This document shows, one piece after another, positions 720 to 54,999 of a stretch of DNA of 64,000 nt. Numbering within the stretch: position 1 is the first letter of the stretch; the number at the start of each line of letters is the position of its first letter. A program made the position numbers and the translations under genes. The stretch is from positions 2,478,100 through 2,542,099 of the forward strand of contig NZ_CM001837.1 in the NCBI RefSeq assembly GCF_000355805.1, read 5' to 3'. A model generated the notes under the pieces. The model was not told the DNA's origin and did no database searches. It saw nothing but the letters and a program-made list of their open reading frames with translations. This DNA comes from Dokdonia sp. PRO95. Its GTDB lineage: Bacteria; Bacteroidota; Bacteroidia; Flavobacteriales; Flavobacteriaceae.

Positions 720-2741
720 TTACATCTTTATAATTCCTTTTTCAAGTACTTGCCATCTCAGCTTTAAACCTACTTCCATAAACTCAAATCCTGCTGCGGT
801 TGCAGAGGCAATGTTACTGTACTTACCGTAAGCACCCATCTGGAAGCGGTTTGATATCGCATACTGTACTCTGGCTTCTACGCGAAAAAGTGTAGAAGCC
901 TCATCCTCTTCTACTACTTGTAAACCTCCTGCAGCGTTTGCTGCATAGCTCCACTTTCCTGCTTGACCAGTAAGATCTAAAAACAACTCAACTGCTTGGT
1001 ATTTTGATGGGCTAAAATATAACGTAGGTACTTGATCCTTAAAACCTACATACTGGTAATTGATACCACCTTTAAGCGTTGGGTTTTTTGTAAAGTTGTA
1101 GTATAAAGAAGTGAATAATAAGTTACGAGAGTTTCCATCTGTTTGCTGCGTGTGCATTAAACCAGTATACCAACCTAGATTTATGTTTGTTCCCATATTG
1201 TAGTTAAGGGAATAGTTATTCATAAATATCTTTTCGTCTAGTAATGCGGCGTTAAAATCTTGTAACGTCCTGCTGTAACCCACCTCTAAAAACTGAAGCG
1301 GAAAAGGTCTTGACTTTACAAAAATAGATCCGTTTACATCTGTATACTCATTTGCATCTGCATCTGCTTTTACAAACCCTAATGTACCTTCTAGCCAGGT
1401 ATTATTTATGACTCTGTAATGAGCTCCAAGGCTTGCATTTGTGTTATAAGCCATCGTGTTTGTGGTCATATTTTCGGTAGTACGGTAGTTGTAAGAAAAT
1501 ATAGCCTTAAACCTACTTGTAAATGGCAAGGTAGCGGTCAGACCAGCCGAGTATGCTTGGTTATCACCATTATCTTTGGTGTATGCAGCTCGTTTTTCGA
1601 TCACGGGAGCGAGGCTACTTTCTATTGTTTTCATTAACCCAGTAGCATCTTTCTGGTTTGGGTAGAAGGTTAAGGTATTTTTCGCGAAAGCGTAAGCCTC
1701 ATCTAGATTACCCTGTGCACGGTACGCATTTGCAATCCCGAGATTTCCGTCAAAAGAGGCGCTGTCCTTCTCAAGGATACCGTTATACACCTCGATACTC
1801 TTTTTAAAAGTCCCCGTGTACATTCCTAAAGTTGCCTTAAGTGCAGCCACGCGCGCATTAGTCGGGAAGGTGCTTTTAAGATCTGCAATGGCAGTTCTTG
1901 CTGTGGCATATTTTCCGTTCCAGATGAGTGCTTGTATGTAGCGCTCGTTTGCAGTAATGATTTTTGTAGTGTCCGCTTTCGCGAAATTAATACTCTCCTG
2001 CGCCAGTGATAATGCGAGCTTGTCGTCCTTCTGTAAGTGAGCAACTAATGATTTACCCACTTGCGATGTTAAGGTATCTGAAAGCTTACTGTACATCGTG
2101 TTTGCGTTGTCAAAATCCTTCTTTGCGATATAGGTATTTGCAAGCGCGCTTATGATTTGCTGATCGTTAGGCATATCCTCAAGAGCACTTTTAAGTAATT
2201 GTATTGCCGCATCATATTGAAAGGCAGTTGTTAGTTGGTTTGCCTTACCTAAACGCATAAACTTTTTTGACACCGCAGCATTTGCATTACCAGGTTGTAC
2301 GGTAAGTGCCTTGTTTACATAAGCGATTGCCGCGTCATATTCTTTAAGGTTAGAAAGCGTGTTTGCATAGCCGAGTAGGGCAGAGAAGCTTGTACTATCT
2401 TTGGCAACGAGGGTTTCATAAAAGTCTTTTGCAGCGCTAAAATCACTATCCCATAAAAGAGACTCGGCATAGTTTAAGCCCACTTCAAAATCTGTAGGGT
2501 AGTCTGCTTTAAGGTTTGTAAAAAGTGTTCTTGCTTTGCCACTCTCACCACTCAACCCTAGAGCACGACCGTAACAGAGTCTTGCCGTTTTATTATCTGG
2601 GTAGTCTTCAAGCACATCTCCAAAAAATGTTTTTGCCTCCTCATATTTCCCAGTTTCTAATAAAGTGAAACCTGCAGACATATCTTGGCTGTATGCTGTT
2701 GCACCTAGTAGGAAAAGAATAATATATGTTAGTTGTCTCAT
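720..2741 (-). CDS. TPR-repeat outer-membrane beta-barrel protein (YaiO/PgaA-like), probable polysaccharide exporter
   Basis: The protein has 673 aa from an ATG at 2741 (MRQLTYIILFLLGATAYS, a typical Sec signal peptide); an earlier in-frame alternative at 2789 would put junk before it. Mature residues up to about 380 are tandem TPR helical repeats (for example DNKTARLCYGRALGLSGESG, SFSALLGYANTLSNLKEYDA). The last 280 residues alternate aromatic and polar residues as in an outer-membrane barrel, ending in LKLRWQVLEKG. A periplasmic TPR domain plus a C-terminal barrel is the layout of exopolysaccharide export proteins such as PgaA and BcsC, and of YaiO-type barrels. The nearby glycosyltransferases, flippase and glycoside hydrolase fit such a role. 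The gene is transcribed alone, with a CGTCGA-type operator about 65 bp upstream. Two copies of the TTTCGCGAAA palindrome lie inside it (about 1680 and 1975), read as AFAK/NFAK. Confidence 0.7.
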   Translation of the reverse strand: MRQLTYIILFLLGATAYSQDMSAGFTLLETGKYEEAKTFFGDVLEDYPDNKTARLCYGRALGLSGESGKARTLFTNLKADYPTDFEVGLNYAESLLWDSDFSAAKDFYETLVAKDSTSFSALLGYANTLSNLKEYDAAIAYVNKALTVQPGNANAAVSKKFMRLGKANQLTTAFQYDAAIQLLKSALEDMPNDQQIISALANTYIAKKDFDNANTMYSKLSDTLTSQVGKSLVAHLQKDDKLALSLAQESINFAKADTTKIITANERYIQALIWNGKYATARTAIADLKSTFPTNARVAALKATLGMYTGTFKKSIEVYNGILEKDSASFDGNLGIANAYRAQGNLDEAYAFAKNTLTFYPNQKDATGLMKTIESSLAPVIEKRAAYTKDNGDNQAYSAGLTATLPFTSRFKAIFSYNYRTTENMTTNTMAYNTNASLGAHYRVINNTWLEGTLGFVKADADANEYTDVNGSIFVKSRPFPLQFLEVGYSRTLQDFNAALLDEKIFMNNYSLNYNMGTNINLGWYTGLMHTQQTDGNSRNLLFTSLYYNFTKNPTLKGGINYQYVGFKDQVPTLYFSPSKYQAVELFLDLTGQAGKWSYAANAAGGLQVVEEDEASTLFRVEARVQYAISNRFQMGAYGKYSNIASATAAGFEFMEVGLKLRWQVLEKGIIKM

Positions 2742-2803
2742 TGCGTATGTTTTACAAGTGCAAGTTATGGCAATATACAAAGGATTCAATCTTAATGTAT
2801 CTG

Positions 2804-2831
2804 CAATTCGTCGACACTTATCGTCGACTGG
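2804..2831. promoter_or_regulatory. Candidate operator of the polysaccharide locus (upstream of TPR/barrel gene)
   Basis: The sequence ATTCGTCGACACTTATCGTC continues into GACT and contains two TCGTCGAC copies 13 bp apart. It sits about 65 bp upstream of the barrel gene start. A close relative with the same length and spacing is found at 5417-5441 before the STAS/GT4 unit. Binding by a regulator is inferred from recurrence only. Confidence 0.4.
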
Positions 2832-2924
2832 TGGAGGTTGCCTAAAGTGTGAATGGAGTTTTGAGGGAAGTGAGCTGTGAATATCTCCCCAAGGTTCTAT
2901 TTATTGTTCCTAAAGTCACTTGCC

Positions 2925-3612
2925 TCCAACATCTCCCCAAATGGGCCTTTCTTCAATTTTTAATATCACCACCGCGAACATCTCCCCAACCCCTCTTCGA
3001 AGAGGGGCTTCTTTTTTCACTCCTCCTCTTCGAAGAGGAGGCTGGGTGGAGATGTTTTTGCGTTTGAGTAAGAAGATAGCTGCCAACATCTCCGTAAAGG
3101 TGCCTTCCTCTCATTGATACTTCACTCGTCGGAAGCAATTTCAAAGAGGGGCTTTCATCTTTGTGTACTCCTCCTCTTTGAAGAGGAGGCTGGGAGGAGA
3201 TGTTTTGAGTTTGAGTGAGAAGTTAGTAGCCAACATCTCCCCAAATGTGCCTTCCTCTCGTTCATACTTCACTCGTCGGAGGCAAGTTCAAAGAGGGGCT
3301 CCAAGTTGTCACTCCTCCTCTTTGAAGAGGAGGCTGGGAGGAGATGTTTTTTCGTTTGAGTGAGTAATATATAAATGCCAGAGGAGATGTTTTTCCGTTT
3401 GAGTGAGAAGATAGTTACTAACATCTCCCCAAATGTGCCTTCCTCTCGTTCATACTTCACTCGTCGGAGGCAAGTTCAAAGAGGGGCTTTCTTCGTTGCG
3501 TGCTCCTCCTCTTTGAAGAGGAGGCCGGGAGGAGATGTTTTTGAGTACGAGTGAGTAATATATAAATGTCTAGGAGGAGATGTTTTTGCGTGTGAGTAAG
3601 AACCACACCCCA
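2925..3612. repeat. Array of imperfect intergenic inverted-repeat elements (family A)
   Basis: The stretch contains four spaced copies of a block centred on CTCCTCTTTGAAGAGGAG (about 3021, 3170, 3312 and 3503), each followed by GGCTGGGAGGAGATGTTTTT and a GAGTGAG/AAG tail. Between them are repeated segments with AACATCTCCCCAAATG and TTCACTCGTCGGAGGCAAGT. The outer arms ACATCTCCCC and GGGAGGAGATGT are inverted, so each unit can fold into a long hairpin with the CTCCTC/GAGGAG hairpin inside. Short open frames across the array follow the repeat, not coding signals. One further copy of the core lies at 28050-28088, downstream of pfaC. I see no gene here. Confidence 0.8.
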
Positions 3613-3651
3613 ACTCCCCAAAAACCACTCCTTATATAGTATCACATTAAA

Positions 3652-3664
3652 CTTTCGCGAAAGC
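3652..3664. repeat. TTTCGCGAAA palindrome copy (intergenic)
   Basis: CTTTCGCGAAAGC, one of about 21 copies in the window, between repeat family A and the operator of the flippase unit. Confidence 0.85.
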
Positions 3665-3701
3665 ATTATTACACCAATATATACTTTAAAGATAAAACAC
3701 G

Positions 3702-3735
3702 ACCACTCGTCTACAGTAAAATTCTACTCATCGAA
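3702..3735. promoter_or_regulatory. Candidate LytTR-like operator upstream of the flippase unit
   Basis: ACCACTCGTC at 3702 and TCTACTCATC at 3723 form an imperfect direct repeat with a 21-bp period. The spacing and sequence resemble LytTR-type half-sites (two 8-9 bp direct repeats separated by about 13 bp). It is about 65-95 bp upstream of the 44-aa gene. Inference only. Confidence 0.35.
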
Positions 3736-3798
3736 ATTTCAACCGAAAGCCTCTTAATTGCTCGCATATTTGTACCAGAAACAAACAACAAAACAATT

Positions 3799-3933
3799 AT
3801 GGGACTTACAGTAATAAATAACTCAAACACATTAAGAGTAGTACACAACGCTAGAAATACACAAGCTAGTAATACATTAAGTGTAGTACACAGAAAGGTA
3901 GATAAGCCGGTTATCCAGTTAATGACTTATTAA
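3799..3933 (+). CDS. 44-aa small protein with internal repeat, first gene of flippase unit
   Basis: The frame reads MGLTVINNSNTLRVVHNARN and then TQASNTLSVVHRKVDKPVIQ before LMTY and a stop. An internal near-duplicate (SNTLRVVH and SNTLSVVH) is seen. The upstream leader (AACAAACAACAAAACAATT before ATG) is typical of flavobacterial 5' regions and matches the leaders of the other units in this locus (5524, 13093). It precedes the flippase start by 9 bases, so it may be translated as a small protein, serve as a translational leader for the flippase, or both. There is no signal peptide or membrane segment, and I do not recognise a family. Confidence 0.5.
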   Translation: MGLTVINNSNTLRVVHNARNTQASNTLSVVHRKVDKPVIQLMTY

Positions 3934-3942
3934 TCATTAGTT

Positions 3943-5181
3943 ATGATCGCTATACAACACAAAATCAAAAAGATACTCTCTCCCGAGCAAATATTTATGC
4001 TCAGTGCCTTTGTGGTAAATGGAGGAAACTACCTCTATAATTTAGGACTGGGTAGAGTACTAGGCCCTGGCGCCTTTGCAGATGCTGCTATACTTATCAC
4101 CTTACTACTTGTATTATCATTTGTTGCAATGACTTTTCAGCTAGCAGTTGCAAAGTTTACAACGGAGTTTGACAAGTCAAAACAAGAAGCATTTGTACAA
4201 AGAGCTTATAAACAAGCTACCACCTTTGGAATCATATTGGGTGCGGCAATTGTAGTTTTTGCAGGATCGCTGCAAACACTTTTTCAAACAGAATCTTCTG
4301 TAATGTTTACCATTTTTGGAATAGCAGTCCCACTTTATTTCATAATGAGCGTAAACAGAGGAAATCTTCAAGGACGTAAATCCTTTATTGCATTATCTAT
4401 CACCTACCAATTTGAAATGGTATGCAGACTCGCACTTACTTTTGCATTATTACTTTTCTTCAATATAGAATCGTCTGTCGCGGTAGCTACAGCAATCGCA
4501 ATCTCTTTTATAGCAGGTGTATTTCCATTTAAAAAGTTAACGTCTAAAAAGGCAGTGCAATCTGCCCTTACCTCAAAAGAGAGCAAGGCAGTTATGAACT
4601 TCTTTGTACTTACTGCGTGCTATGAGCTTACCCAGATCATTTGTAACAACAGTGATATACTCTTAGTAAAACACTATTTTCCATCTTATGATGCAGGATT
4701 ATATGCATCTCTAGCCCTTATAGGTCGTGTAGTTTACTTTGTAACCTGGATGTTTGTGATGTTACTATTACCTACGGTAGTATCTATGCGCAAGGAAGGT
4801 AAGAACTCTGTACCTGTACTTATGAAGTATGTAGGGTACATCACAGCCCTTGCTAGTGGTATCGTGTTATTTACATTTCTGTTTCCATCATTTGCAGTAC
4901 AAATATTATTTGGAGAACAGTATATGTCTATTGCTCCATTATTAGGTTGGTATGCACTTGCGACATCTTTTTTTGCCCTATCAAACATTTTTGCCTACTA
5001 CTATCTATCCCTAGATCATTATAAACCTATTGTAATTGCTGCCATTTTTGGAGTGTTACAAATAGTGTTAATCATATTATTCCACGATTCATTGTTTGAA
5101 GTTGTTTTAGCCCAAGTAGTTGCAATGGGAAGTTTACTCATTGCTCAATTACTTTATTTCTGGAAGATGCAAGTAAAGTAA
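3943..5181 (+). CDS. Polysaccharide flippase-like membrane protein (Wzx/MATE-type)
   Basis: The 412-aa polytopic membrane protein has about 12 predicted helices and the look of the oligosaccharide flippase family: N-terminal FMLSAFVVNGGNYLYNLGLG, a charged loop, then SVNRGNLQGRKSFIALSITY around residue 135-155 and repeated hydrophobic blocks to the C-terminus (LLIAQLLYFWKMQVK). Family members move lipid-linked sugar repeat units across the inner membrane. It follows the 44-aa frame with a 9-base gap and ends in a clear hairpin terminator. It lies among glycosyltransferases and an export-type barrel, which supports a role in surface polysaccharide assembly. The substrate cannot be told. No Wzy polymerase or Wzz is visible in the window. 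Confidence 0.75.
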   Translation: MIAIQHKIKKILSPEQIFMLSAFVVNGGNYLYNLGLGRVLGPGAFADAAILITLLLVLSFVAMTFQLAVAKFTTEFDKSKQEAFVQRAYKQATTFGIILGAAIVVFAGSLQTLFQTESSVMFTIFGIAVPLYFIMSVNRGNLQGRKSFIALSITYQFEMVCRLALTFALLLFFNIESSVAVATAIAISFIAGVFPFKKLTSKKAVQSALTSKESKAVMNFFVLTACYELTQIICNNSDILLVKHYFPSYDAGLYASLALIGRVVYFVTWMFVMLLLPTVVSMRKEGKNSVPVLMKYVGYITALASGIVLFTFLFPSFAVQILFGEQYMSIAPLLGWYALATSFFALSNIFAYYYLSLDHYKPIVIAAIFGVLQIVLIILFHDSLFEVVLAQVVAMGSLLIAQLLYFWKMQVK

Positions 5182-5203
5182 CAGTTTCCCCAAATTGTAG
5201 TTG

Positions 5204-5246
5204 CCCTCTTACATAAGCATTTGCTTTTGTGAGAGGGTTTTTGTTT
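5204..5246 (+). terminator. Intrinsic terminator after flippase
   Basis: The arms CCCTCTTACATAAGCA and TGCTTTTGTGAGAGGG pair with few mismatches and are followed by TTTTTG. From its end to 5410 I see no further feature. Confidence 0.75.
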
Positions 5247-5414
5247 TGACTAACTGAAGCCTATTAGGGAGGTCTATAATATCCTTTTATATACTCCTTA
5301 TCTATATCAAATCTCTATCTAGTGATATCTAATCTTAGCAGCTGCAGTATAGTAACTTAGCCTATGTAAGCTGTAATTGTAAGAAAGTGCAAAATCGTTT
5401 ATCGAAGGTCAAAT

Positions 5415-5441
5415 ACCATTCGTCTATACTAACGGTCGAGT
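5415..5441. promoter_or_regulatory. Candidate operator upstream of the STAS/GT4 unit
   Basis: ACCATTCGTCTATACTAACG followed by GTCGAGT. It aligns without gaps to the motif at 2804-2831 and contains the ACCATTCGTC half-site also found at 12978-12987 (opposite strand). It is about 85-110 bp upstream of the 5524 start. Confidence 0.4.
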
Positions 5442-5456
5442 AAACGTTTTTCGTCC

Positions 5457-5468
5457 GCTTTCGCGAAA
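5457..5468. repeat. TTTCGCGAAA palindrome copy (promoter region)
   Basis: GCTTTCGCGAAA, right arm incomplete. It lies between the candidate operator and the start of the STAS-like gene, close to where a promoter (CATATTTGTAC at about 5479) is expected. Confidence 0.8.
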
Positions 5469-5523
5469 ACAAAGCCCCATATTTGTACTATCAAAAAAAC
5501 ATAACTACTTAAAAACAAATATT

Positions 5524-5823
5524 ATGGCACTAGAAATAAACAACATTTACGGAGTAACTTGTATCAAAGGAAAAGTATCAAACACACACGTACAAGAAGT
5601 AAAAGGATACTTTAAAGCACTATTATCTGTAGAAGATAATGTCATCATAAATTTATGTGAGGTTAAAAAAGGAGCTAAGAAACTAGTAAGAGTTTTAGAA
5701 AGCTTACAAGCCGAAATCTCAGAAGAAAAATCACTTAAGTTTTTCAGCTATCCAGAGCCAGCAGTTGCCGAATTATATGCGCAAATTAATAATCAGTCTA
5801 ACTATTACCAGGCAGCAGCATAA
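5524..5823 (+). CDS. Small STAS-like protein
   Basis: This 99-aa soluble protein has an alternating strand/helix pattern: a strand pair at residues 5-20 (INNIYGVTCIKGKVSNTHVQ), a hydrophobic strand NVIINLCEVKKG near 38-50, a helix with KKLVRVLESLQAE, and a final strand KSLKFFSYPEP. This resembles the STAS (anti-sigma-antagonist) fold, although the usual D-S phosphorylation motif is not evident. It begins the transcription unit that continues 40 bases later with a GT4 glycosyltransferase, so a regulatory role in polysaccharide synthesis is an inference. The assignment rests on pattern only. Confidence 0.6.
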   Translation: MALEINNIYGVTCIKGKVSNTHVQEVKGYFKALLSVEDNVIINLCEVKKGAKKLVRVLESLQAEISEEKSLKFFSYPEPAVAELYAQINNQSNYYQAAA

Positions 5824-5863
5824 GACTACACAAATTACTATAACAACATCAAATCTATATATT

Positions 5864-7066
5864 ATGAAACTAGCAATCGTAACGGCCTATCCACCGAGCA
5901 AAGTAACTTTAAACGAATATGCATACCATTTAGTAAAGCACTTTCGTCAAAACCAAGAAGTAACAGAACTGGTACTTCTTACAGATGTAACTCCAGACCA
6001 AGCAGATATCACTTTTGAAGAAGATGGATGCGAGATTACAGTAAAGCAATGTTGGAAATTCAATAGCTTAAAAAATGTATTCTCTATTGCAAAAGCCGTA
6101 AGAGCAACACAACCAGATGCAGTACTTTATAACCTACAGTTTATGAAGTTTGGAGATAAGAAGGTAGCTGCAGCGCTAGGATTGTTTTCTCCTTGGGTAT
6201 CAAAAATGATGGGAGTAAAAACAACGGTATTACTTCACAATATAATGGAAACTGTAGATCTTGATAGTGCAGGTTTTACAAGTAATAAATTAAAAATAAA
6301 GGCATATAACTTCATAGGCGAGATGCTTACTCGTGTGGTACTTAAAGCAGATACAGTAGCGCTTACCATCAGTAAATATGTAGACATACTAGAAGAGAAG
6401 TATAATGCAAAAAATTGTGTACTGATCCCTCACGGTACCTTTGAGATTCCAGAAGAGCCATCTTATGATGTAGCACCAGGTCCTTTAAAAATAATGACGT
6501 TCGGAAAATTTGGAACCTACAAGAAAGTAGAGATACTTATAGAAGCTGTTCAAATCGTAAGAGAGCAAACCGGTCGTGATCTTGAGATTGTAATTGCTGG
6601 TACAGATAGTCCTAACACACCAGGATACCTAGCAGAAGTTCAAGAAGTATATAAACACGTTCCTAATCTTACATTTACAGGTTATGTAGAAGAAGAAGAT
6701 GTACCTGTAATCTTTTCAGAAAGTGCGATGGTTGTTTTTCCATACACATCTACTACCGGAAGCTCAGGAGTGTTACACCAGGCTGGAAGTTATGGTAAGG
6801 CAGTAGTAATGCCAGACCTAGGAGATCTTGGTATTCTTGTAAAAGAAGAAGGATACAGAGGTGAGTTTTTTAACCCAGAGAGTTTACATAGTCTAGCTAC
6901 AGGAATCCAAAACCTTGTAACAAACGACGCTTACAGAACAGAAATAGCAAAAGCAAATTATCAAGCAGCAACAGCATTACCTATGAGCCGTATTGCTCAA
7001 ATGTATATAGATGTTTTTAATGGCACATCAAGAAGAACAAAAAACACCACATTAATGGCAGCATAA
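5864..7066 (+). CDS. GT4-family glycosyltransferase
   Basis: The ATG at 5864 gives 400 aa starting MKLAIVTAYPPSKVTLNEYA, the usual first strand and loop of a GT-B enzyme; the longer upstream frame overlaps the previous gene and is not credible. The N-terminal half binds the acceptor. In the C-terminal half, ILIPHGTFE-like text (CVLIPHGTFEIPE, about residue 185), LKIMTFGKFGTYKKVEILIE (about 210) and FPYTSTTGSSGVLHQAGSYG (about 295-315) match the sugar-nucleotide-binding region of family GT4, including the E/H-rich binding loop. It probably adds a sugar to a lipid-linked or growing glycan on the cytoplasmic side. It is co-transcribed with the STAS-like protein and ends one base before the convergent GH5-like gene. 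Confidence 0.85.
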   Translation: MKLAIVTAYPPSKVTLNEYAYHLVKHFRQNQEVTELVLLTDVTPDQADITFEEDGCEITVKQCWKFNSLKNVFSIAKAVRATQPDAVLYNLQFMKFGDKKVAAALGLFSPWVSKMMGVKTTVLLHNIMETVDLDSAGFTSNKLKIKAYNFIGEMLTRVVLKADTVALTISKYVDILEEKYNAKNCVLIPHGTFEIPEEPSYDVAPGPLKIMTFGKFGTYKKVEILIEAVQIVREQTGRDLEIVIAGTDSPNTPGYLAEVQEVYKHVPNLTFTGYVEEEDVPVIFSESAMVVFPYTSTTGSSGVLHQAGSYGKAVVMPDLGDLGILVKEEGYRGEFFNPESLHSLATGIQNLVTNDAYRTEIAKANYQAATALPMSRIAQMYIDVFNGTSRRTKNTTLMAA

Positions 7067-8581
7067 TTACCGGTTCTTAATGATCAAATAGGCATCGTCT
7101 TTCACCCCAAGTGTATTAACAATTCCAAAAAAAGCCTGTTTGTTCTTTCGCCACGGTAATCTACCAGCCACTTCACTCGGTATATCCCTAAAATCATAAA
7201 GTGTCCAAGAGAGATAGTGTATACTATCTCTTTTCTGGGTTTTATAAAACTCAGTATAATAAGCAGCTTGATCTTCTTCATCTGGACCTATGGGATTCCA
7301 TAAACCGTGATAAGCGGCAAGACCAAATTCTTGTAAAACCACAGGTTTACTAGTTACATCTGTTATTAATTTGTGAGCAGCACTTAGGTCCTTGAGGTCT
7401 TTGTAATAATGATAAGAGATAATGTCTACTTTATTTTCTAGATATAATGCGGCCTCTGGCGAAGACCAGCCTATAGTTACTGGGTGTGTATTATCTATAG
7501 TCTTGAGATAATCTATCGTTTGACTCAGCCAAGATAAAACTTCACGTTGCCCGCGACTTTCAAAATCTAGATTAGGCTCATTTTTTATATCCCATCCTAA
7601 TAAAGCAGGATGGTCTTTTATATGTGTCACGATACTATATAGATGAGCATTTGTAATAGTCCAGTCTTGTATGCGATAATCTCCATAAAAGTCAAAAAGG
7701 GTGACCACAACCTTAAGATTTGCTGCTTGTGCTTCATCTAGAAGTGATGTGAGTTTCTCAAGCTTTTCTCGCGGAACACGCGCTTTGCCAAAATCCTCAA
7801 ACCCCACAAAGACTCTTATAGAATTAAGCTTAAGATCATTAATAATTTTAAAATCTGTGGTGAGGGTATCTTTACTAAACGTAGCTCCAAAGGTATCCCA
7901 AGGGCTCCCTTGTGGGTAATAGTTAATTCCTTCTAGCATTGCAAGATCAATCGGGATAGTCTCTTTTTGAGCATCATCTACTGGATGTGAGGCTACTTTT
8001 TCAAAATGTCGCACTCTCCAGAAGCCATCTTCTAGTAATAGTATGATTTTATAATCATCATTAAAAGAGCGCTCTACTAGAAATTGCTCATTTTTAAAAA
8101 CACGTTCTACACCTGTGACATTGCGATCTGTAAGTACAACCAGTGTACCGTCTGCACTATAAAATTCTAGCGAGAGGTGATGGGTGAGGGTCGTACTTTC
8201 TATATATACGTTTGCCTCATTATTTAATGTGATTAAGTCCTCAACCTTTCCGCGGGCTTGCTCTGTAAAATGATCAAAAACTCCAGCATTTTCACCTGTG
8301 TAAAAAGCTCTATTCTTTACATACCAAGCGTCTAGATAATCTTCTTCTATGCTTTTAAGATTTGCTTCTTCCATAGGTCTTCCAGGATTTTCAATAGACT
8401 CCCACTTCACCTGGGGTACATAGTGACGCTCTTTTGTTTCATCTAGGTGAAGCATCTTACTTCTGTCTGCACCCGTGTTTAAAAAAGCAATCACCTGACT
8501 TATACCATAGAGGATACCCGCATTTATGAGAATAAATCCAGCCAAAATTAAGATACGATATAGCGTTTTATTGGTTTTCAA
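7067..8581 (-). CDS. Membrane-anchored GH5-like glycoside hydrolase
   Basis: The 504-aa protein has an N-terminal membrane anchor (ILILAGFILINAGILYGISQ, residues about 10-30). Residues about 60-200 look like an NTF2-like domain, and a TIM-barrel hydrolase occupies 210-500. The catalytic signature WDIKNEPN (acid/base Glu, about 350) and VVLQEFG (nucleophile Glu, about 425) match clan GH-A, family 5-type cellulases and mannanases. Hydrolases of this kind are common companions of exopolysaccharide synthases and trim the chain in the periplasm. The only start is a TTG whose TGA-overlap (TTGA) with the preceding gene indicates translational coupling. It is the last gene of the 12905-7067 operon. 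Confidence 0.75.
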   Translation of the reverse strand: MKTNKTLYRILILAGFILINAGILYGISQVIAFLNTGADRSKMLHLDETKERHYVPQVKWESIENPGRPMEEANLKSIEEDYLDAWYVKNRAFYTGENAGVFDHFTEQARGKVEDLITLNNEANVYIESTTLTHHLSLEFYSADGTLVVLTDRNVTGVERVFKNEQFLVERSFNDDYKIILLLEDGFWRVRHFEKVASHPVDDAQKETIPIDLAMLEGINYYPQGSPWDTFGATFSKDTLTTDFKIINDLKLNSIRVFVGFEDFGKARVPREKLEKLTSLLDEAQAANLKVVVTLFDFYGDYRIQDWTITNAHLYSIVTHIKDHPALLGWDIKNEPNLDFESRGQREVLSWLSQTIDYLKTIDNTHPVTIGWSSPEAALYLENKVDIISYHYYKDLKDLSAAHKLITDVTSKPVVLQEFGLAAYHGLWNPIGPDEEDQAAYYTEFYKTQKRDSIHYLSWTLYDFRDIPSEVAGRLPWRKNKQAFFGIVNTLGVKDDAYLIIKNR

Positions 8582-9816
8582 TCTGTAATTGTGATTTTGT
8601 ATGTAGCCTCGAGTCCTAGGGTCTCAATGTTTACAACATATGTTCCTGCGGGATAGTCTTCTTCTTTGAGATAAAAGACGGCAGATCCATTTTTTGTTAA
8701 GCCGTTGTAGGTGTTATTGTTTATAGTAATTTGAACGTCTATTCCATTTTGCACTAGCTGGCCTAGGTAGCTCGTAAGTGGGCCTACAGTTAGATTTCTT
8801 TCGGTGATTTGTGGTGCTGGGATGCTGTCTATGATAGCTGTAAACTCTTGAGTAATGGTTTTGCTCTGTGCAATACCTGTCGCTGCTGCCCGTACACTCC
8901 AAGTGGTAGGGAAATGTGGGTGTAACGCTTTCGCGAAAGCGTACCCATTTATAGTACTCGCTGTAATCTGCCAGTGGGCACCTCTAGCATTTGTCATAAA
9001 AAAGGTGACGAGTGTCCCGTCTGTCATTACATTACCGTGTGCATCGCGTATTTGCGAACTTTTAAATGTGATGATTTCATTACCATCTGCATAGTTGTGA
9101 TTACTACTTGCGGTGATAGTAAAATCTTGAGCAACATCTGGAAATACATCTGCAACCAACTCCTTAGACGATATATTTTCAATCGTACTTCCCGTACTTA
9201 CTCGGCCGGTCTTAAGTGGAGCATAAATGCGTTTCCATACAAAGCCAGATGTAACCCCGTGAGATGTAGTTGTAATGTTAGATTTAAACTGCGACTTGAG
9301 AGCCACTTCTGTATTATCTGGCAGCGTGTTATCTAGTGTATCTGTAGGGATACTAACTAGCATCGTGTAGTCACGCACATTTGCAACAATACTACGTGGC
9401 CCAAGATAAGTTTCTACAGTGCCTAGTTGAGTAGCATTGGGCAGTAGTCTAAAACTTCCTTCTTGCGTAACCTTATCATTAAGATATAGGCTATAATTTA
9501 CCACACCACTACGTTTTGTAAAACTAGGAGGAATATAAAACTGTGGTGTATTATTAATTGCTTCGGGCTCTATAACAATCGTAGCATAGGTACTAGAGAC
9601 AATGAGATAAGCCTGTCCCGTGGCAATAATAGTGTCACCCATCGTGGTAATGTAGATTCCCTTTTCTGTAACTGTAGTATCCTCTATGTCATTTATAGAT
9701 AGTGTTATAGGCGTAGCTGTTACTTCAAAGGGTTCTTCTTTACAACTAGACATACCGAAGCATATGAGTATACTCATATATAAAAGTAAATGCGATATGT
9801 GGGTGTGGCGCTTCAT
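8578..9816 (-). CDS. Surface lipoprotein with Ig-like domains, polysaccharide operon
   Basis: 412 aa, with a lipoprotein signal peptide (MKRHTHISHLLLYMSILICF then GMSSCKEE, Cys about 25). The rest is beta-rich with several Ig-like modules and no recognisable catalytic motif; the final module ends NIETLGLEATYKITITD. It sits between the GT-C-like membrane protein (1-base overlap, TAATG) and the GH5-like hydrolase (4-base overlap), so its product should work with them in the envelope, perhaps binding the glycan. Part of the sequence (NGYAFAKALHP) is encoded by a copy of the CTTTCGCGAAAG palindrome at 8925. The family is not recognised. Confidence 0.7.
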   Translation of the reverse strand: MKRHTHISHLLLYMSILICFGMSSCKEEPFEVTATPITLSINDIEDTTVTEKGIYITTMGDTIIATGQAYLIVSSTYATIVIEPEAINNTPQFYIPPSFTKRSGVVNYSLYLNDKVTQEGSFRLLPNATQLGTVETYLGPRSIVANVRDYTMLVSIPTDTLDNTLPDNTEVALKSQFKSNITTTSHGVTSGFVWKRIYAPLKTGRVSTGSTIENISSKELVADVFPDVAQDFTITASSNHNYADGNEIITFKSSQIRDAHGNVMTDGTLVTFFMTNARGAHWQITASTINGYAFAKALHPHFPTTWSVRAAATGIAQSKTITQEFTAIIDSIPAPQITERNLTVGPLTSYLGQLVQNGIDVQITINNNTYNGLTKNGSAVFYLKEEDYPAGTYVVNIETLGLEATYKITITD

Positions 9817-12800
9817 TATTTTGGATTACCTACATAGTTATTTGTGATGATGGTGATATATGCATACGGCATACCTGCTACAGGTATAAACGTACGGTTA
9901 GTCCCAGCATCATTCCGTTGAGGCACCACCTTATCAGAGATACTCTGGTTAGGTAGTCCATTTACAGAGGCCGTAGCTAGTCCAGACGCAACCTCTTTAG
10001 GTAATGCATCTGTATAAAGTACTTCAGAAAAAGGGCGTTTGCGTTGCTGGCGCACACTCTCATCTATATATCTGCTTTCTACCCATAGCAACTCCTTGTC
10101 TTCATTATAGTAGCCTATGAGTAGTTGTGGTATGGTCGCTTCTTCTATACTTGTATTAAAGAGAAAACCATTTAAGGTTGTGTCTTTTTGTGTGACATTA
10201 AAAAGGTCTGCAGCTTGGTAAAGATCTGTAGTTGCTACGTTTGCACTTACTTGTACCTCAAAGTTTACTGGGATGTCTGTAAGATCTACCTCTGTAAATG
10301 TATCTGGCTCGTAGGTAGTGGGCTTTTCTTCTAGCGCAGATGCCCAAGCAATACCCTCAAAGTTTATACGATATAGCGTTGTTTCCTTAGGCAGTAGTTT
10401 ATGCTTTACTACATCTTTTGCATTAAATCTTGCCAGCTCCTCATTTTCTTCATTATACAAAGCTCCTGTCACAGAGATATCTGCAGGGATATTATCTACA
10501 TTCTGTATTTCGCCTACAATAGCATAGGTTGTGTCTAGCTGTACCAGTCTTGCAGAGAGTACCTCTACAACGGGTTGTTTAAGTACATCTTCGTGAAAGG
10601 TTTGCTCTGAGGTGACGGCACGCTTACCGTGATTATAATATCTAGTGCCACTTTGTATGAGTAATTGCTCTGGTGGGATGTCTGGATCTACCTTTTGAGG
10701 TATAATGTACCATTTGCTCTTCTTTTTAATGAGCTCTAGCTCATCTTGAGTTTGTATCTCCTTGAGTGGTGTAATCCAGGTGGCATCTACAATACCTTGT
10801 GCAGTTGTGTCTGTCTTAGGTGTTATATCTATGTGCAAGCTATCTAGCTTTGCATATGAACTTAACAGGCCATCTGAGACCGATATCTCAAGCATAAACT
10901 GTGAGAGTTTTTTATCACTCTCTGGATCAAGATAAGAGTGCGCACGCTCAAATTCTTTAAAATCTACAGCATCATAATAGGCCGTGACCACATTTCTTGC
11001 AGAGAGTTGTGTGGTGTTTTTTACATAAAATAGATATCCTGCATAGGCTATAATAATGAGTAAAACAATCGTCCATAATATAGAAGCCCAATATAATAAG
11101 GAGGGCGCTCGCTTGTATTTTGCAGCAAATGCAAAATATAAGGGAAGCTCATTTTTTCTATTAAAAGATCGCGTCCATAAGGCACCTAGATGCAATAGTA
11201 TTGCGAGTATTACTGTTGAGAATGGAATGATGCCCCACATAAGTTTTAAAACTAGCGGTGCATCTTCTCTAGGCAGCACACTAGGTAAGGGAGCAATACC
11301 TGCTTTTTCCCAAACCATAATACCGTTTTCTAGTAAGCTCAATCTGTGCCAGCCAGCAAAGTAGAGTAGTGGGTCATAAAATTTATCATTAGAAAACACA
11401 TATTTTAAATGATACTTTTCTGGTACCGTAAGAAACTGCTGTAGCGAGCCTATTCCTTCTATACCTCTATATTTTGAGTTTTCGAGACGCTCTACCGCTC
11501 GTGTGGTAAGCTCTGGCAGCCTTCTAGCAGAGTGGTAATCTCCATCTACCGTGGTTGCCTTAGTTTGTGCAGAGAGCCACGCCATCTGGTCTCCAAAACC
11601 TAGTGGTAAGTATCGCCATTTATAATGCTCATCTTCATTTAAGAAGTTTACAATAGGCGTCATCTTAATTACATCTGGCTGGCTCGGTCTAAATTTTCCT
11701 AGGGTAATTGTAAAAATGGCAATAAAAATAAATAGTAGCGATAAAAATGCTCCAGATGCTCTATGCACCAGCGTTCCCCATTTTTCTTGCAAGTAATCCT
11801 TATAATCTCCCTCTACAAAGCGGTAACAAAATTCGCCAAAAACCGGCAGTGCCATTATAGATGCCCATAATGTAAAGCGGTCTAGTGTAAGGATATTAAA
11901 GGCATTTTCGCCTAGCATTGCCAGCGGAATAGGTGTAGTACCCCCAGTACCCAAAATAAAAAGTAAGGTAAATGAGATGCCAAAAAATAGAAGGCGCTTG
12001 CTATAATATCTATAAAAGAAATAAGGAAGCAAGAACATTAAAAGTCCCCAAGGGATCACAAAAAACACCAGTCCAGAAGAGAGTACTTCAAGAAAGCTGT
12101 CACGCGACCCGTGCGGTATAGGCACCTGCGTGATCGGATTATTTTTAGTATTTACCCAGTACGGTAAGATGCACGTGATGATAAGAAACAAGGAACATCC
12201 TCCAAATATGATGATGCGTCTTAGGTGGGTCCATACCGCTTTCGCGAAAGCGATAACAGTCACCTCCTTTGTACTATTAACCTTTTCTCTCGCAGCATCC
12301 ATTACCACCATTCCTAACAGTGGGAATATGAAGAAAACCATACCAAAGATAGGAGTCACGTGATGTGAAGTAACCGTTACCGAGAGTAATGCCAGTGCTT
12401 TAAAGAGGTGTCGTTTACGCGCAGTTTTTACCCAGAGATATATCTCCGGCAGGCAATGCATTAATACAGAGATACCTATAATGCTAGGAAGTTGCCCAAA
12501 TATATGGAGCGTTTCTACAAAGGAAGAACTAAATACGGCTAGCACCGCAGCATAACCAGCGACCTTTTTATTAGGTATAAGCACCATCGTAAAGCGATAC
12601 ACTCCAGTAATAAATAGTACGACTCCCGTGAGGGCGACAGTAAACATCCCAAATTTAAGACCACCTATATAAGAGAGTGCTCCTATAGTTTGATGCACTA
12701 GTGGTGGGTATCCCATTACTGTAAAGCCAGTATACCAGCTATAACTCCAAGGCTCAAACCAGTTAGTCGCATAGTGATTTGCAAAAAACAGGTGTATAAG

Positions 12801-12905
12801 AGCGTCATAAGTGCGCTCTACAGTAAAAAACATAGCCGTCCCGTGGAAAATCATTCCGAGGAGTACGGCACTTACTAAATATTTGTTAGTTCTAGACTGT
12901 TTCAT
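9816..12905 (-). CDS. Large GT-C-like integral membrane protein (PTPS-related membrane family)
   Basis: The 1029-aa protein has an N-terminal membrane part (about 11 helices in the first 410 residues), a periplasmic segment, further helices near 570-590 and 630-655, and a soluble C-terminus. The early motif YDALIHLFFANHYATNWFEP, followed by WYTGFTVMGYPPLVHQ, has the acidic first loop and aromatic/Pro pattern of the family called 6-pyruvoyl-tetrahydropterin-synthase-related membrane proteins, which look like GT-C glycosyltransferases using lipid-phosphate sugars. Residues about 660-770 (VVTAYYDAVDFKEFERAHSY) look like an NTF2-like domain, also seen in the GH5-like partner. First gene of a three-gene operon, divergent from the GT2 that could supply its lipid-linked donor. 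Confidence 0.65.
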   Translation of the reverse strand: MKQSRTNKYLVSAVLLGMIFHGTAMFFTVERTYDALIHLFFANHYATNWFEPWSYSWYTGFTVMGYPPLVHQTIGALSYIGGLKFGMFTVALTGVVLFITGVYRFTMVLIPNKKVAGYAAVLAVFSSSFVETLHIFGQLPSIIGISVLMHCLPEIYLWVKTARKRHLFKALALLSVTVTSHHVTPIFGMVFFIFPLLGMVVMDAAREKVNSTKEVTVIAFAKAVWTHLRRIIIFGGCSLFLIITCILPYWVNTKNNPITQVPIPHGSRDSFLEVLSSGLVFFVIPWGLLMFLLPYFFYRYYSKRLLFFGISFTLLFILGTGGTTPIPLAMLGENAFNILTLDRFTLWASIMALPVFGEFCYRFVEGDYKDYLQEKWGTLVHRASGAFLSLLFIFIAIFTITLGKFRPSQPDVIKMTPIVNFLNEDEHYKWRYLPLGFGDQMAWLSAQTKATTVDGDYHSARRLPELTTRAVERLENSKYRGIEGIGSLQQFLTVPEKYHLKYVFSNDKFYDPLLYFAGWHRLSLLENGIMVWEKAGIAPLPSVLPREDAPLVLKLMWGIIPFSTVILAILLHLGALWTRSFNRKNELPLYFAFAAKYKRAPSLLYWASILWTIVLLIIIAYAGYLFYVKNTTQLSARNVVTAYYDAVDFKEFERAHSYLDPESDKKLSQFMLEISVSDGLLSSYAKLDSLHIDITPKTDTTAQGIVDATWITPLKEIQTQDELELIKKKSKWYIIPQKVDPDIPPEQLLIQSGTRYYNHGKRAVTSEQTFHEDVLKQPVVEVLSARLVQLDTTYAIVGEIQNVDNIPADISVTGALYNEENEELARFNAKDVVKHKLLPKETTLYRINFEGIAWASALEEKPTTYEPDTFTEVDLTDIPVNFEVQVSANVATTDLYQAADLFNVTQKDTTLNGFLFNTSIEEATIPQLLIGYYNEDKELLWVESRYIDESVRQQRKRPFSEVLYTDALPKEVASGLATASVNGLPNQSISDKVVPQRNDAGTNRTFIPVAGMPYAYITIITNNYVGNPK

Positions 12906-12956
12906 TTGGGAGTGAAAAGATACCCTTTTTAATATTCTGATTCAAAGATAGTTCTT

Positions 12957-13000
12957 TCGATGAATGGTTCATCCTTCGACGAATGGTAACCGTCGATACA
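12957..13000. promoter_or_regulatory. Candidate operator in the divergent GT-C/GT2 promoter region
   Basis: The + strand carries TTCGATGAATGGTTCATC followed by TTCGACGAATGGTAACCGTC, a direct repeat with GAATGGT copies 19 bp apart (12962 and 12981). Read on the minus strand they are ACCATTCGTC and ACCATTCATC, the half-site also present at 5415. It lies between two divergent units, so it could control both. Confidence 0.45.
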
Positions 13001-13047
13001 AAGAATCCAGCCATCGAAAATTCAAAAAAATAGCTGCAATCTGGAGG

Positions 13048-13055
13048 TATGTTTG
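13048..13055 (+). promoter_or_regulatory. Bacteroidota-type -7 promoter element of the GT2 gene
   Basis: TATGTTTG fits the TAnnTTTG consensus, 38 bases before the start codon. No convincing TTG -33 element is seen at the usual distance, which would suit an activated promoter. Confidence 0.45.
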
Positions 13056-13092
13056 TCTTGTAAAACAATAACAACACACAAAAACACACATT

Positions 13093-13902
13093 ATGAAAAC
13101 TGGAATAATCATCCCTTGCTACAACGAAGAAAAGAGACTTAACACAGAAGCATTTGTAAAATTCATTAAAGAAAACCGCGATTACCACCTATGTTTTGTA
13201 AACGATGGAAGTAAAGATAAAACGCTAGAGGTTCTTTATAGTATGAAAGAACAAGCGCCTAATGCAATAAGCATTGTAGATGTAAAAAAGAACTCTGGTA
13301 AAGCAACCGCTGTAAGAGCAGGAGCTAGATTCTTATACAGCAAGTCTACTATCTCTACGATAGGATTTATGGATGCAGACCTTTCTACAGACTTCAGAGA
13401 TTTTAAGGACCTCGTTAAAACTCTGAAGACTGAGGGAAAGCTCGTAGTTTTTGGTTCTAGAAACGCTTTAGGAAGCGGTGAGATAGAGCGTAACTTTATG
13501 AGAAATATGTTTTCAAAATTTGTGAAGCAGTTTATCTTATTAATCTTAGGATTACCTATAAGAGACACGCAGTGTGGAGCAAAAGTATTTACAAGAAGCA
13601 TCGTGCCTGTAGTATATGACAATGCTTTTACTAGCAGATGGTTGTTTGATGTTGAGATCTTCTTACGTCTTAAGAGCTACCTAGGAAAAGAAAATACAAT
13701 GACGAACATCTTTGAGCAGCCACTTATGAGATGGGTACACGTAGATGATTCTAAGTTAGGAATGAAAGACGCTTTACAAATCCCAATGAATCTTACACAA
13801 ATCTGGATGAACTATGCTTTTCAAAGCAATACAGCAGCCAGCGCAATCCCTACAGAATTTGCACTAGACACTATGTCTCAAGAATTTTCTATAGCAGCAT
13901 AA
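13093..13902 (+). CDS. GT2-family glycosyltransferase (dolichyl-phosphate sugar synthase-like)
   Basis: This 269-aa cytoplasmic GT-A enzyme has the opening MKTGIIIPCYNEEKRLNTEA, the nucleotide-binding FVNDGSKDKTLEVL (about 37-50), the metal-binding FMDADLSTDF (about residues 93-102), and QCGAKVF near 160, all standard for polyprenyl-phosphate mannose/glucose synthases. It lacks the C-terminal membrane helices of ArnC/GtrB types. It likely charges a lipid phosphate with a hexose, which the divergent GT-C-like protein could use. Co-transcribed with manA 57 bases downstream, which provides mannose-6-phosphate/fructose-6-phosphate interconversion and hints at mannose-derived donors. Confidence 0.85.
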   Translation: MKTGIIIPCYNEEKRLNTEAFVKFIKENRDYHLCFVNDGSKDKTLEVLYSMKEQAPNAISIVDVKKNSGKATAVRAGARFLYSKSTISTIGFMDADLSTDFRDFKDLVKTLKTEGKLVVFGSRNALGSGEIERNFMRNMFSKFVKQFILLILGLPIRDTQCGAKVFTRSIVPVVYDNAFTSRWLFDVEIFLRLKSYLGKENTMTNIFEQPLMRWVHVDDSKLGMKDALQIPMNLTQIWMNYAFQSNTAASAIPTEFALDTMSQEFSIAA

Positions 13903-13959
13903 TAATTACTGTTTCCTAGTCCCCATAAAACATCATTTATCCACATCAAATCTACTATT

Positions 13960-14928
13960 ATGAACATCTATCCTATAAAATTTGAGCCTATCCTTCAAGA
14001 AAAAATCTGGGGAGGATCTAAACTACAATCGGTACTTAATAAGAAATGTACTAGTGATACGACTGGTGAGAGCTGGGAAATATCTGGAGTAGAAGGAAAT
14101 ATATCACAGGTAGCAAACGGATTATACGAGGGAGAATCACTGGTTTCTCTTTTAGAAAACCACACCAGTGAGTTTGTAGGAGCTGCAAATTATGAACGAT
14201 TTGGAAATGAGTTTCCGTTGCTTATAAAGTTTCTAGATGCAAAGACAAATCTTTCTGTACAAGTACACCCAGATGATGAGATGGCACAAAGAGATCATAA
14301 CTCATACGGTAAAACCGAAATGTGGTATATCATGGACCATGAAGAAGAAGCAGAAATTATATTAGGTCTTAAAGATAAAAACGCAAATACAGAAATCTTA
14401 CGTGATGTGACAGGAGATAATGTATATGACGTATTTAATAAAGAAAAAGTAACAAGAGGTGATGCATATTTTATTCCTGCAGGAAAGATACACGCCATAG
14501 GAGCAGGTGTACTGGCAGCAGAGATACAGCAAACCTCAGATATCACCTATAGAGTATATGACTGGGATCGCACAGATAAGGAAGGTCAAAAAAGAGATTT
14601 ACACCTTGACCAGTCTGTTGCAGCTACTAAGGAGTTTACTGAAGAATGTAAGAAAGAATGTAAAGTAAATAGTAATACCTCGTCAAATGTTGTTGCCTGT
14701 GATTACTTTACCACAAATGTGCTACGAGTAAATAAAACTTTTGAGAAATCTTATGCAAACCTTGACTCTTTTGTAATCCTTATGTGCGTTGAGGGTTGTG
14801 CCTCAGTAACCGTAAATAATAAGACAGAGATTGTATTTAAAGGTGAAACCATCTTACTTCCAGCAAATTCTAAAGAAGCTTTTTTCTTTGCAAAGGATGC
14901 TCAATTTCTAGAAGTATATATTGATTAA
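13960..14928 (+). CDS. manA: Mannose-6-phosphate isomerase, class I
   Basis: This 322-aa cupin enzyme interconverts fructose-6-phosphate and mannose-6-phosphate, feeding GDP-mannose formation. Recognisable parts are the N-terminal FEPILQEKIWGGSKLQSVLN, the zinc-site block NLSVQVHPDDEMA (about residues 93-105) with KTEMWYIMDH shortly after, and YFIPAGKIHAIGAGVLAAEI (about 170-190). The length matches the short bacterial type. Last gene of the GT2-manA unit, followed by an intrinsic terminator. Its place beside a GT2 enzyme suggests a mannose-containing glycan, though the enzyme also has general roles. Confidence 0.93.
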   Translation: MNIYPIKFEPILQEKIWGGSKLQSVLNKKCTSDTTGESWEISGVEGNISQVANGLYEGESLVSLLENHTSEFVGAANYERFGNEFPLLIKFLDAKTNLSVQVHPDDEMAQRDHNSYGKTEMWYIMDHEEEAEIILGLKDKNANTEILRDVTGDNVYDVFNKEKVTRGDAYFIPAGKIHAIGAGVLAAEIQQTSDITYRVYDWDRTDKEGQKRDLHLDQSVAATKEFTEECKKECKVNSNTSSNVVACDYFTTNVLRVNKTFEKSYANLDSFVILMCVEGCASVTVNNKTEIVFKGETILLPANSKEAFFFAKDAQFLEVYID

Positions 14929-15266: not shown

Positions 15267-15902
15267 TTAAGGGTTAATAGTACTCTTTCTGCGCACTAGT
15301 GCAATAAACAGTAGTCCAGCAATGAGTATGAAAACAAATGCCATAATAGGCGGAAATAAGCTAGCACGATGTGCTGTTACTTCAGTAAAGTTTTTACCAT
15401 CTACTCGCAGTGATAAGGTGTGATTATTATCATCATTAAGTACAAAGTGTTTCTTATTAAACCCTTCTTTGAGTAGGATTAATGCACTCTGGCTTTTGTG
15501 AATATCTACAAAAGCTGTGTTTTCTATAACTGCACTTTGTATAGTGGTAGGCACTCCAATCACTTTAAAAACTACCTTAGTTTCATGTCCTAATTGTACA
15601 ATGCCGTTTAATAACAATACTTCTTTATTCTCGTCAAAACGTATATGCAAGTTGTTCTTAATATGAGTAAGAACCATTTCTTTAAACTCCTCTGGAGTGG
15701 TATAAGGCGTGTCTGAAAAATGCGTGTTTATCTCTTGCTGAAAAGCAGTGAGAGATGCACTCACTTGTAGCACCCATGTTTGATCTTCTTGCTGCACTAA
15801 CATTGTAGTGGAAGCATCTGATTGATGTGCAAGTGCTTTAAAAGAAAAACACAATATGCATAGAACAATCAATAACGATTTCAGTTTTTTTCTAGTTTGC
15901 AT
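15267..15902 (-). CDS. Exported protein with C-terminal membrane anchor, unknown function
   Basis: The 211-aa protein has a Sec signal peptide (LLIVLCILCFSFKALAHQSD), a beta-rich middle part and a C-terminal helix (IMAFVFILIAGLLFIALVRR) followed by a basic tail, so it should face the periplasm or cell surface from one membrane anchor. No catalytic motif is visible. Its start overlaps the end of the YHYH lipoprotein gene by 11 bases, a strong sign of translational coupling. The family is not recognised with certainty; the general look is that of small exported flavobacterial proteins near metal or peptidase-type envelope systems. Confidence 0.7.
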   Translation of the reverse strand: MQTRKKLKSLLIVLCILCFSFKALAHQSDASTTMLVQQEDQTWVLQVSASLTAFQQEINTHFSDTPYTTPEEFKEMVLTHIKNNLHIRFDENKEVLLLNGIVQLGHETKVVFKVIGVPTTIQSAVIENTAFVDIHKSQSALILLKEGFNKKHFVLNDDNNHTLSLRVDGKNFTEVTAHRASLFPPIMAFVFILIAGLLFIALVRRKSTINP

Positions 15903-19671: not shown

Positions 19672-19817
19672 CACAAATGGAGTTTTAGCTGTTATCATTA
19701 AATCTGAATCTTCGAAAAAATCATTACATAAAATTCTTAAATTCAGTCTTTTGTTGAGTTAAATGTACGTCTTAAAGAGATTTCGATTTGCTATCATTCA
19801 GCGAACCAGCGTAAGTT

Positions 19818-34803: not shown

Positions 34804-34851
34804 TCTTTGTAGCTACTTAAGACGATTATTGCAATAGATGAGAAATAACTT

Positions 34852-37341: not shown

Positions 37342-37346
37342 TTGAG

Positions 37347-54979: not shown

Positions 54980-54999
54980 TACGCTTTCGCGAAAGCGTA
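54980..54999. repeat. TACGCTTTCGCGAAAGCGTA palindrome (divergent promoter region)
   Basis: Perfect 20-mer between two divergent genes, 18 bases before the MazG-like start codon. Confidence 0.9.

Follow-up and report, generated by a model that had tools for sequence, protein, structure and literature searches.

In Vibrio fischeri the syp polysaccharide is controlled by HnoX/HahK together with the STAS protein SypA (PMC12369376, PMC4517449), and nitric oxide (NO)-dependent control over kinases is exerted by FIST proteins, NosP among them (PMC12570481). The fusion of a receiver domain to a family-2 glycosyltransferase (GT2) was previously described, within the open-access literature, only from the Methanobacteriaceae (MTH_548; PMC5847659). 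Here we analyze a surface-glycan locus of Dokdonia sp. PRO95 together with the H-NOX/FIST cassette that lies next to it. The locus is found at positions 720-14928 of a 64,000-nucleotide stretch of DNA (the window), which corresponds to 2478100-2542099 of the complete 3.3 Mb genome, the nearest named relatives of which are members of Dokdonia. Its nine genes are arranged in five transcription units on both strands, as judged by strand and gaps, and encode a tetratricopeptide repeat (TPR)/beta-barrel protein, a MOP flippase, a STAS-like protein, a family-4 glycosyltransferase (GT4), a hydrolase of clan GH-A, a lipoprotein, a 1029-residue membrane protein, a GT2, and ManA. We propose, as a somewhat probable reading, that this is a self-contained locus of the Flavobacteriaceae for the assembly and export of a surface glycan, that it is based on a glycosyltransferase of the GT-C fold, and that it is under protein-level control by an NO-type phosphorelay and a STAS protein. 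The features of the locus are as follows.

720-2741, minus strand: TPR and outer-membrane beta-barrel exporter (BcsC/PgaA-like), 673 residues; TPR families and BCSC_C above cut-off, orthologues only in genomes positive for the GT-C protein.
3799-3933, plus strand: open reading frame of 44 residues immediately 5' of the flippase gene; conserved by tblastn in Dokdonia, Patiriisocius and SAT149.
3943-5181, plus strand: MOP-superfamily flippase, 412 residues; PF13440, 39 bits (cut-off 23).
5524-5823, plus strand: single-domain STAS-like protein, 99 residues, without the phospho-acceptor serine; orthologues match PF01740.
5864-7066, plus strand: GT4 (GT-B) glycosyltransferase, 400 residues, with TSTTGSSGVLHQAG in place of EX7E; PF13692/PF00534 and alignment.
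7067-8581, minus strand: membrane-anchored hydrolase of clan GH-A, 504 residues; PF02836 and invariant alignment columns.
8578-9816, minus strand: lipoprotein with about four tandem immunoglobulin (Ig)-like domains, 412 residues; AlphaFold2 model with a mean confidence score (pLDDT) of 92.1, FdeC/invasin-like match with Z 13.8.
9816-12905, minus strand: predicted membrane glycosyltransferase of GT-C fold with C-terminal periplasmic domains, 1029 residues; AlphaFold2 model, fold matches and invariant Asp34.
13093-13902, plus strand: soluble GT2 of the GtrB/DPMS/ArnC type, 269 residues, from a solo clade without receiver; PF00535, PDB relatives and tree.
13960-14928, plus strand: ManA, mannose-6-phosphate isomerase; TIGR00218, 152.8 bits (cut-off 116.2).

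An initial annotation had taken this region for a surface-polysaccharide locus that has neither Wzy nor a synthase and whose units belong together, and we confirm the former, with all nine genes at these coordinates, while the latter is borne out by co-occurrence and synteny. In a family sample of 149 Flavobacteriaceae genomes, one per genus, relatives of the GT-C protein are present in 40; 38 of these are real, and the other two are a broken fragment and a weak match. Orthologues of the GT4 and of the TPR-barrel are each present in 37 genomes, all within the 38 that are GT-C-positive, and the two misses (G048 and G106) are both fragmented assemblies. The GT-C protein was found in 10 genomes of a phylum sample of 296, nine of them in the Flavobacteriaceae and one outside (G301); the latter carries the whole locus in another family (L117, G301:C32:608000-626061) with a receiver-fused GT2 that is 83% identical to one from Winogradskyella, which points to a likely horizontal transfer. 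GT-C relatives are encoded by 426 genome-contig stretches, and 80 of these loci were read and are the source of all counts out of 80 given here. The order GT2, GT-C protein, lipoprotein, hydrolase, GT4, flippase and TPR-barrel, with relative strands alike, is exact in 53 of the 80 (38 plain, 11 with manA, and 4 with manA and STAS), and the loci without the exact order are mostly cut contigs or contain insertions. Because both the gene set and its order recur in relatives, the grouping is not due to chance. The membership of manA, also claimed initially, stands for this genome and less so for the family, as the gene is linked in only 19 of the 80 loci.

The lipoprotein, the 1029-residue protein and the STAS-like protein of the window have no family match in the Pfam scan or the model scan, and a profile search with the 1029-residue protein against PDB sequences found nothing, so that its placement is by fold comparison alone. 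An AlphaFold2 model of this protein, built from 27 orthologues, is of moderate confidence, with a mean pLDDT of 61.6 and most of the transmembrane part at 70-90. Foldseek alone gave weak matches for the model. With VIA-align 2, residues 1-415 superimpose on GT-C enzymes, the best match being oligosaccharyltransferase (OST/STT3; Z 16.9, 321 residues, 4.5 Å), with further matches to AglB, ArnT (Z 14.2), PMT, PglB, and AftA. The top 27 rows all have the GT-C fold or one related to it, with Z from 16.9 down to 11.5 and about 320 residues aligned at 4-5 Å. As would be anticipated for a GT-C enzyme, the first periplasmic loop has an acidic residue: Asp34, which directly follows the first transmembrane helix and does not vary among the 27 orthologues. 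Toward the C terminus lie an NTF2-like domain, assigned by eye, and two Ig-like sandwiches, a common arrangement with Z of about 8. On the basis of the model, the protein has a GT-C fold, in agreement with the GT-C-like label of the initial annotation, and is predicted to be a lipid-phosphate-sugar transferase.

The enzymes and exporter around the GT-C protein are of known types. The 269-residue GT2 is the sole GT2 of the locus and lacks a synthase-length extension; its PDB neighbors, GtrB (5ekp), the Pyrococcus DPMS (5mlz), and ArnC, are all polyprenyl-phosphate-sugar synthases, and its DxD motif (D94-A95-D96, DAD) is invariant in the alignment. That the GT2 makes a lipid-linked sugar, as suggested initially, is hence supported by its resemblance to this type of enzyme. 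The expectation of an export barrel and a hydrolase with no processive synthase agrees with the family scans. The TPR-barrel has TPR repeats and a BCSC_C match of 25.3 bits (cut-off 23.5), and it scores 52 bits against the PgaA model, far under the cut-off of 367. Among the nine proteins of the locus, neither Wzy_C nor the processive-synthase families gave a match above cut-off in the full Pfam scan and the model scan, and the Bac_transf family of priming transferases gave none in Pfam. The hydrolase has an N-terminal transmembrane segment and an accessory domain followed by a TIM barrel, in which the catalytic pair of clan GH-A, Glu335 (NEP) and Glu418 (QEFG), is conserved. It was first described as GH5-like, and its closest PDB profiles are those of beta-glucuronidases and of endoglucanases and mannanases of GH5; the TIM barrel stands, as PF02836 (GH2-type), but the assignment extends to clan GH-A and not specifically to GH5. 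The tandem domains of the lipoprotein resemble adhesin rods. The GT4 orthologues are highly conserved, at 61-77% identity, and across an alignment of 20 sequences TSTTGSSGVLHQAG stands where EX7E is usual, except that one sequence has TTTTGSSGVLHQAG. Since the motif is replaced, the activity of this GT4 is not to be taken for granted.

Directly to the left of the window (G000:C1:2468710-2474840), about 4 kb from the TPR-barrel gene, lies a cassette of seven genes that encode, in order, a receiver, an H-NOX protein, a PAS kinase, a FIST/NosP-like protein, a kinase, a histidine phosphotransfer (HPt) protein, and a LytTR regulator. It is convergent with the TPR-barrel gene and does not form one operon with it. 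The same block, in the same order, is found at the TPR-barrel in many genera, and the gap from the FIST gene to the TPR-barrel gene is 15 kb or less in 17 of the 21 genomes that have both, including the source genome. FIST is present in 20 of the 33 genera that have a receiver-fused GT2 versus 8 of the 116 that do not (Fisher p 2.5e-10), although this and the linkage probabilities overstate the number of independent events because the genera share ancestry. The H-NOX protein (PF07700, 141 bits) retains the proximal histidine, His102, and the YxSxR heme motif in 23 of 23 sequences. FIST and FIST_C domains were found in the FIST/NosP-like protein, for which heme binding is putative. Among the genes between the cassette and the TPR-barrel of the source genome is one for a cargo protein of the type IX secretion system (T9SS). 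A DUF6923 protein is encoded in this interval in several genera (L118:12971-15571, L125-L130, L143, and L144) and has a T9SS C-terminal sorting domain in the source genome; it may be a surface partner.

A link between such a cassette and a biosynthetic enzyme is suggested by the relatives of the window GT2. In 45 of the 80 loci a GT2 of about 380-400 residues has an N-terminal receiver domain (PF00072, 86.5 bits), the phosphorylation residues of which (DD, D, S, and K) are invariant in all 48 receiver-GT2 proteins. All three receiver-GT2 genomes that lack the GT-C protein have the cassette, including FIST, and in two of them it is within 10 kb of the receiver-GT2. In the tree, the solo and receiver forms fall into two clades (supports of 1.0 and 0.97), and this complete split makes them paralogues; one genome (G077) has the two side by side, and the source genome has the solo form only. 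We therefore reject the loss of a receiver from the window GT2, as the separate solo clade shows that the window keeps the other paralogue, and direct phospho-control through a fused receiver cannot operate here. Short GT2 genes of 115-180 codons follow the receiver-GT2 gene in many of the genomes that have one, with examples at L039:8030-8533, L044:8133-8621, and L068:8142-8624, and were found in Winogradskyella, Olleya, Kordia, Lutibacter, Flavivirga, and Tenacibaculum. They are nearest to the solo clade and have lost the DxD motif. Their nonsynonymous divergence (dN) is well below the synonymous one (dS), with ratios of about 0.09 to 0.36 for those that allowed an estimate of dS, which is evidence of purifying selection, so that they represent a conserved pseudoenzyme rather than debris, and we reject decay as a pseudogene. 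Such a truncated GT2 is a possible regulator.

The STAS protein (about 98 residues, with orthologues matching PF01740) accompanies the flippase in 60 of the 73 relatives that have a flippase, sometimes in two copies, and it is hence a part of the module as first annotated. The window protein itself is under the Pfam detection limit and was assigned through these orthologues. The position that corresponds to the phospho-acceptor of SypA and SpoIIAA is serine in 3 and threonine in 7 of 81 sequences, and the acceptor is absent in the window protein. We therefore reject phospho-switching of the STAS protein, and from these residues STAS control of the phosphorylation type is unlikely. It may instead be a constitutive partner protein; SypA of V. 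fischeri is active in a form that cannot be phosphorylated (PMC4517449). The post-translational control that had been suggested from the STAS-like gene is therefore not upheld in that form: the STAS phosphosite is mostly absent, and the receiver is visible on the GT2 of relatives but not on that of the window.

We now put forward a hypothetical mechanism for the locus. The GT2 would, as judged from the enzyme families, load a hexose onto polyprenyl phosphate (mannose is one possibility, in view of manA), while the GT4 and the MOP flippase would make and move a lipid-linked saccharide. On the periplasmic side, the GT-C enzyme would use the lipid-phosphate sugar to extend or decorate the chain, in the place of Wzy, and the hydrolase, the Ig-repeat lipoprotein, and the TPR-barrel would process and export the glycan. 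The cassette, presumably sensing NO, would hand phosphate on to the LytTR regulator that it encodes and, in most genera, also to the receiver of the GT2 fusion, while the STAS protein would be a further regulator of the GT4/flippase step. The identity of the glycan, NO as the signal, the phosphotransfer, and the target of the STAS protein are inferred. By analogy with the syp and NosP systems, the cassette would gate the locus via LytTR and, in genomes that have one, via the GT2 receiver. The GT-C enzyme may build the glycan or only decorate it; of the earlier idea that a GT-C protein fed by a GT2-made lipid-sugar builds or modifies the glycan outside the cell, the fold and the GT2 type have held up. 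A more specific version, plausible though short of probable, is that the NO phosphorelay acts directly on a biosynthetic enzyme. Here the HPt protein would phosphorylate the receiver-GT2 and so gate the lipid-sugar donor of a Wzy-replacing GT-C enzyme, with the STAS protein and the truncated GT2 pseudoenzyme as further regulators and the same control unit serving two unrelated assembly systems.

Any such mechanism must be weighed against other ways of reading the same genes. The GT4 and the MOP protein could form a cytoplasmic synthase/transporter as in Pel, with the barrel, lipoprotein, and hydrolase exporting and trimming the product and the GT2 and GT-C protein serving only to decorate it. 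The kinds of parts are those of Pel, the GT4 and flippase genes are co-oriented neighbors together with a regulator, and the locus lacks both Wzy and a priming transferase. Yet in a full Pfam scan (E≤1) the GT4 has no match to the PelF domain and the flippase none to the PelG family, on which ground we reject membership in the Pel family; the GT4 lacks EX7E, and the GT-C protein is conserved as much as the GT4 and is always present, which suits a core role. We consider a Pel-like scheme unlikely. It is distinctly improbable that there is no exported polymer at all and that the GT-C enzyme glycosylates surface proteins or lipids by OST/PMT or ArnT chemistry, the barrel having another role. Protein glycosyltransferases and ArnT are the closest folds and T9SS cargo genes are often beside the locus, but the locus constantly combines a TPR-barrel of BcsC type with a flippase and a glycoside hydrolase, which is the hallmark of polysaccharide export.

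The cassette, for its part, might be a mere neighbor that works through LytTR at the level of transcription or acts elsewhere, the GT2 receiver answering another kinase or being structural, and we regard this as somewhat unlikely. It encodes a LytTR regulator and a CheY-like receiver of its own, is missing from 17 of the 38 GT-C-positive genera, and is in a separate operon, convergent to the TPR-barrel gene, but its linkage is tight and repeated, extends to a receiver-GT2 alone (G077 and G113), and includes a second locus whose priming transferase has a receiver-like domain. Specifically, four FIST-positive genera (G102, G086, G140, and G051) have neither the GT-C locus nor a receiver-GT2, and in these the cassette adjoins a stand-alone receiver, a Bac_transf priming transferase, an outer-membrane protein, and a Wzz-like protein (L135, L136, L141, and L142). 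The N-terminal receiver-like region of the transferase is clear in G140, weaker in G102 and G051, and below detection in G086; a STAS gene is found at this locus in three of the four genera, and Wzx and Wzy follow in G102 and G086, the two for which the sequence beyond it was covered. Because this is a second association, with an unrelated assembly system, the cassette appears to serve polysaccharide synthesis rather than being a mere neighbor, and the gene neighborhoods argue that the H-NOX/FIST control unit is portable between assembly systems. Nevertheless, several observations weigh against the GT-C-based, phosphorelay-controlled locus that we favor. The GT-C model has a mean pLDDT of 61.6, and its main periplasmic loop (398-548) is below 50; the GT4 departs from EX7E; 17 of the 38 GT-C-positive genera are without the cassette; the window GT2 has no receiver and belongs to a separate paralogous clade; and the association statistics are inflated by shared ancestry.

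Some further features of the window were noted. The start of the TPR-barrel gene is better placed at 2741 (ATG, then a signal peptide) than at 2789, and that of the GT4 was corrected to 5864. The 44-residue open reading frame, which like the adjacent cassette had escaped the initial annotation, has tblastn matches of 51-100% identity at the equivalent position in L015, L016, L018, L019, and L043. Between the TPR-barrel and flippase genes, an intergenic array (2860-3602) consists of repeats of about 150 nucleotides with the palindrome CCTCCTCTTYGAAGAGGAGG. The palindrome CTTTCGCGAAAG has 14 sites in the 64 kb versus none in 100 dinucleotide shuffles; it is a repeated motif, both genic and intergenic (for example, 3652-3663, 8928-8939, and 54984-54995). 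A scan for the strict flavobacterial promoter TTG-N17-23-TAnnTTTG gave sites inside genes only. To the right of the locus, two proteins with YHYH-like motifs (15892-16890 and 18901-19698) flank an SCO1-like protein, and at 28096-41891 adjacent proteins of 2235, 660, and 1514 residues resemble enzymes of the polyketide/polyunsaturated fatty acid synthase type, followed by a TetR-like regulator and a possible phosphopantetheinyl transferase, all as judged by eye.

Control by cyclic di-GMP (c-di-GMP) is thought to be rare in Bacteroidota. If our proposal is correct, the locus represents a widespread and apparently undescribed glycan system of marine flavobacteria, in which a GT-C enzyme occupies the position otherwise held by Wzy or a synthase, and it offers a direct path by which gas sensing could act on glycan synthesis at the level of the enzyme. 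Flavobacterial surface glycans matter for biofilms and for the turnover of carbon on particles and algae. The open-access papers searched contained no account of the locus, and while its parts are of known kinds, their combination is apparently new as far as the searches reached.

Among known systems, the V. fischeri syp system, with SypA/SypE and HnoX-HahK, is similar in its regulation. Both have a polysaccharide locus, a single-domain STAS protein, response-regulator control below the level of transcription, and an NO-sensing H-NOX/kinase/HPt input (PMC12369376, PMC4517449), but SypA is controlled at Ser56, a position that is only rarely serine here, and in the flavobacteria receiver domains are on the biosynthetic enzyme itself, in relatives, and FIST is added. 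As in NosP-NosK-NosR (PMC12570481), the FIST gene adjoins those of a histidine kinase and a response regulator, although the output there is a c-di-GMP-related domain and here is LytTR, HPt, and putatively biosynthetic enzymes. In MTH_548 (PMC5847659), too, a receiver domain is joined to a family-2 glycosyltransferase, but that GT2 is BcsA-like and archaeal, whereas the fused GT2 described here, from Bacteroidota, is soluble and resembles polyprenyl-phosphate-sugar synthases. The GT4, MOP-type transporter, TPR-barrel, lipoprotein, and hydrolase recall Pel, from which the locus differs by its lack of a PelF or PelG match, by the extra GT2 and GT-C protein, and in that no c-di-GMP receptor was recognized. 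The TPR-barrel matching BCSC_C and the glycoside hydrolase are as in the cellulose (BcsC/BcsZ) and poly-N-acetylglucosamine (PgaA) systems, in contrast to which the locus has no processive membrane GT2 synthase. Finally, the GT-C protein shares with OST/STT3, PglB, ArnT, PMT, and AftA the modelled membrane fold and the acidic residue in the first periplasmic loop, but it belongs to a family of its own, for which Pfam has no model and whose C-terminal periplasmic domains are large.

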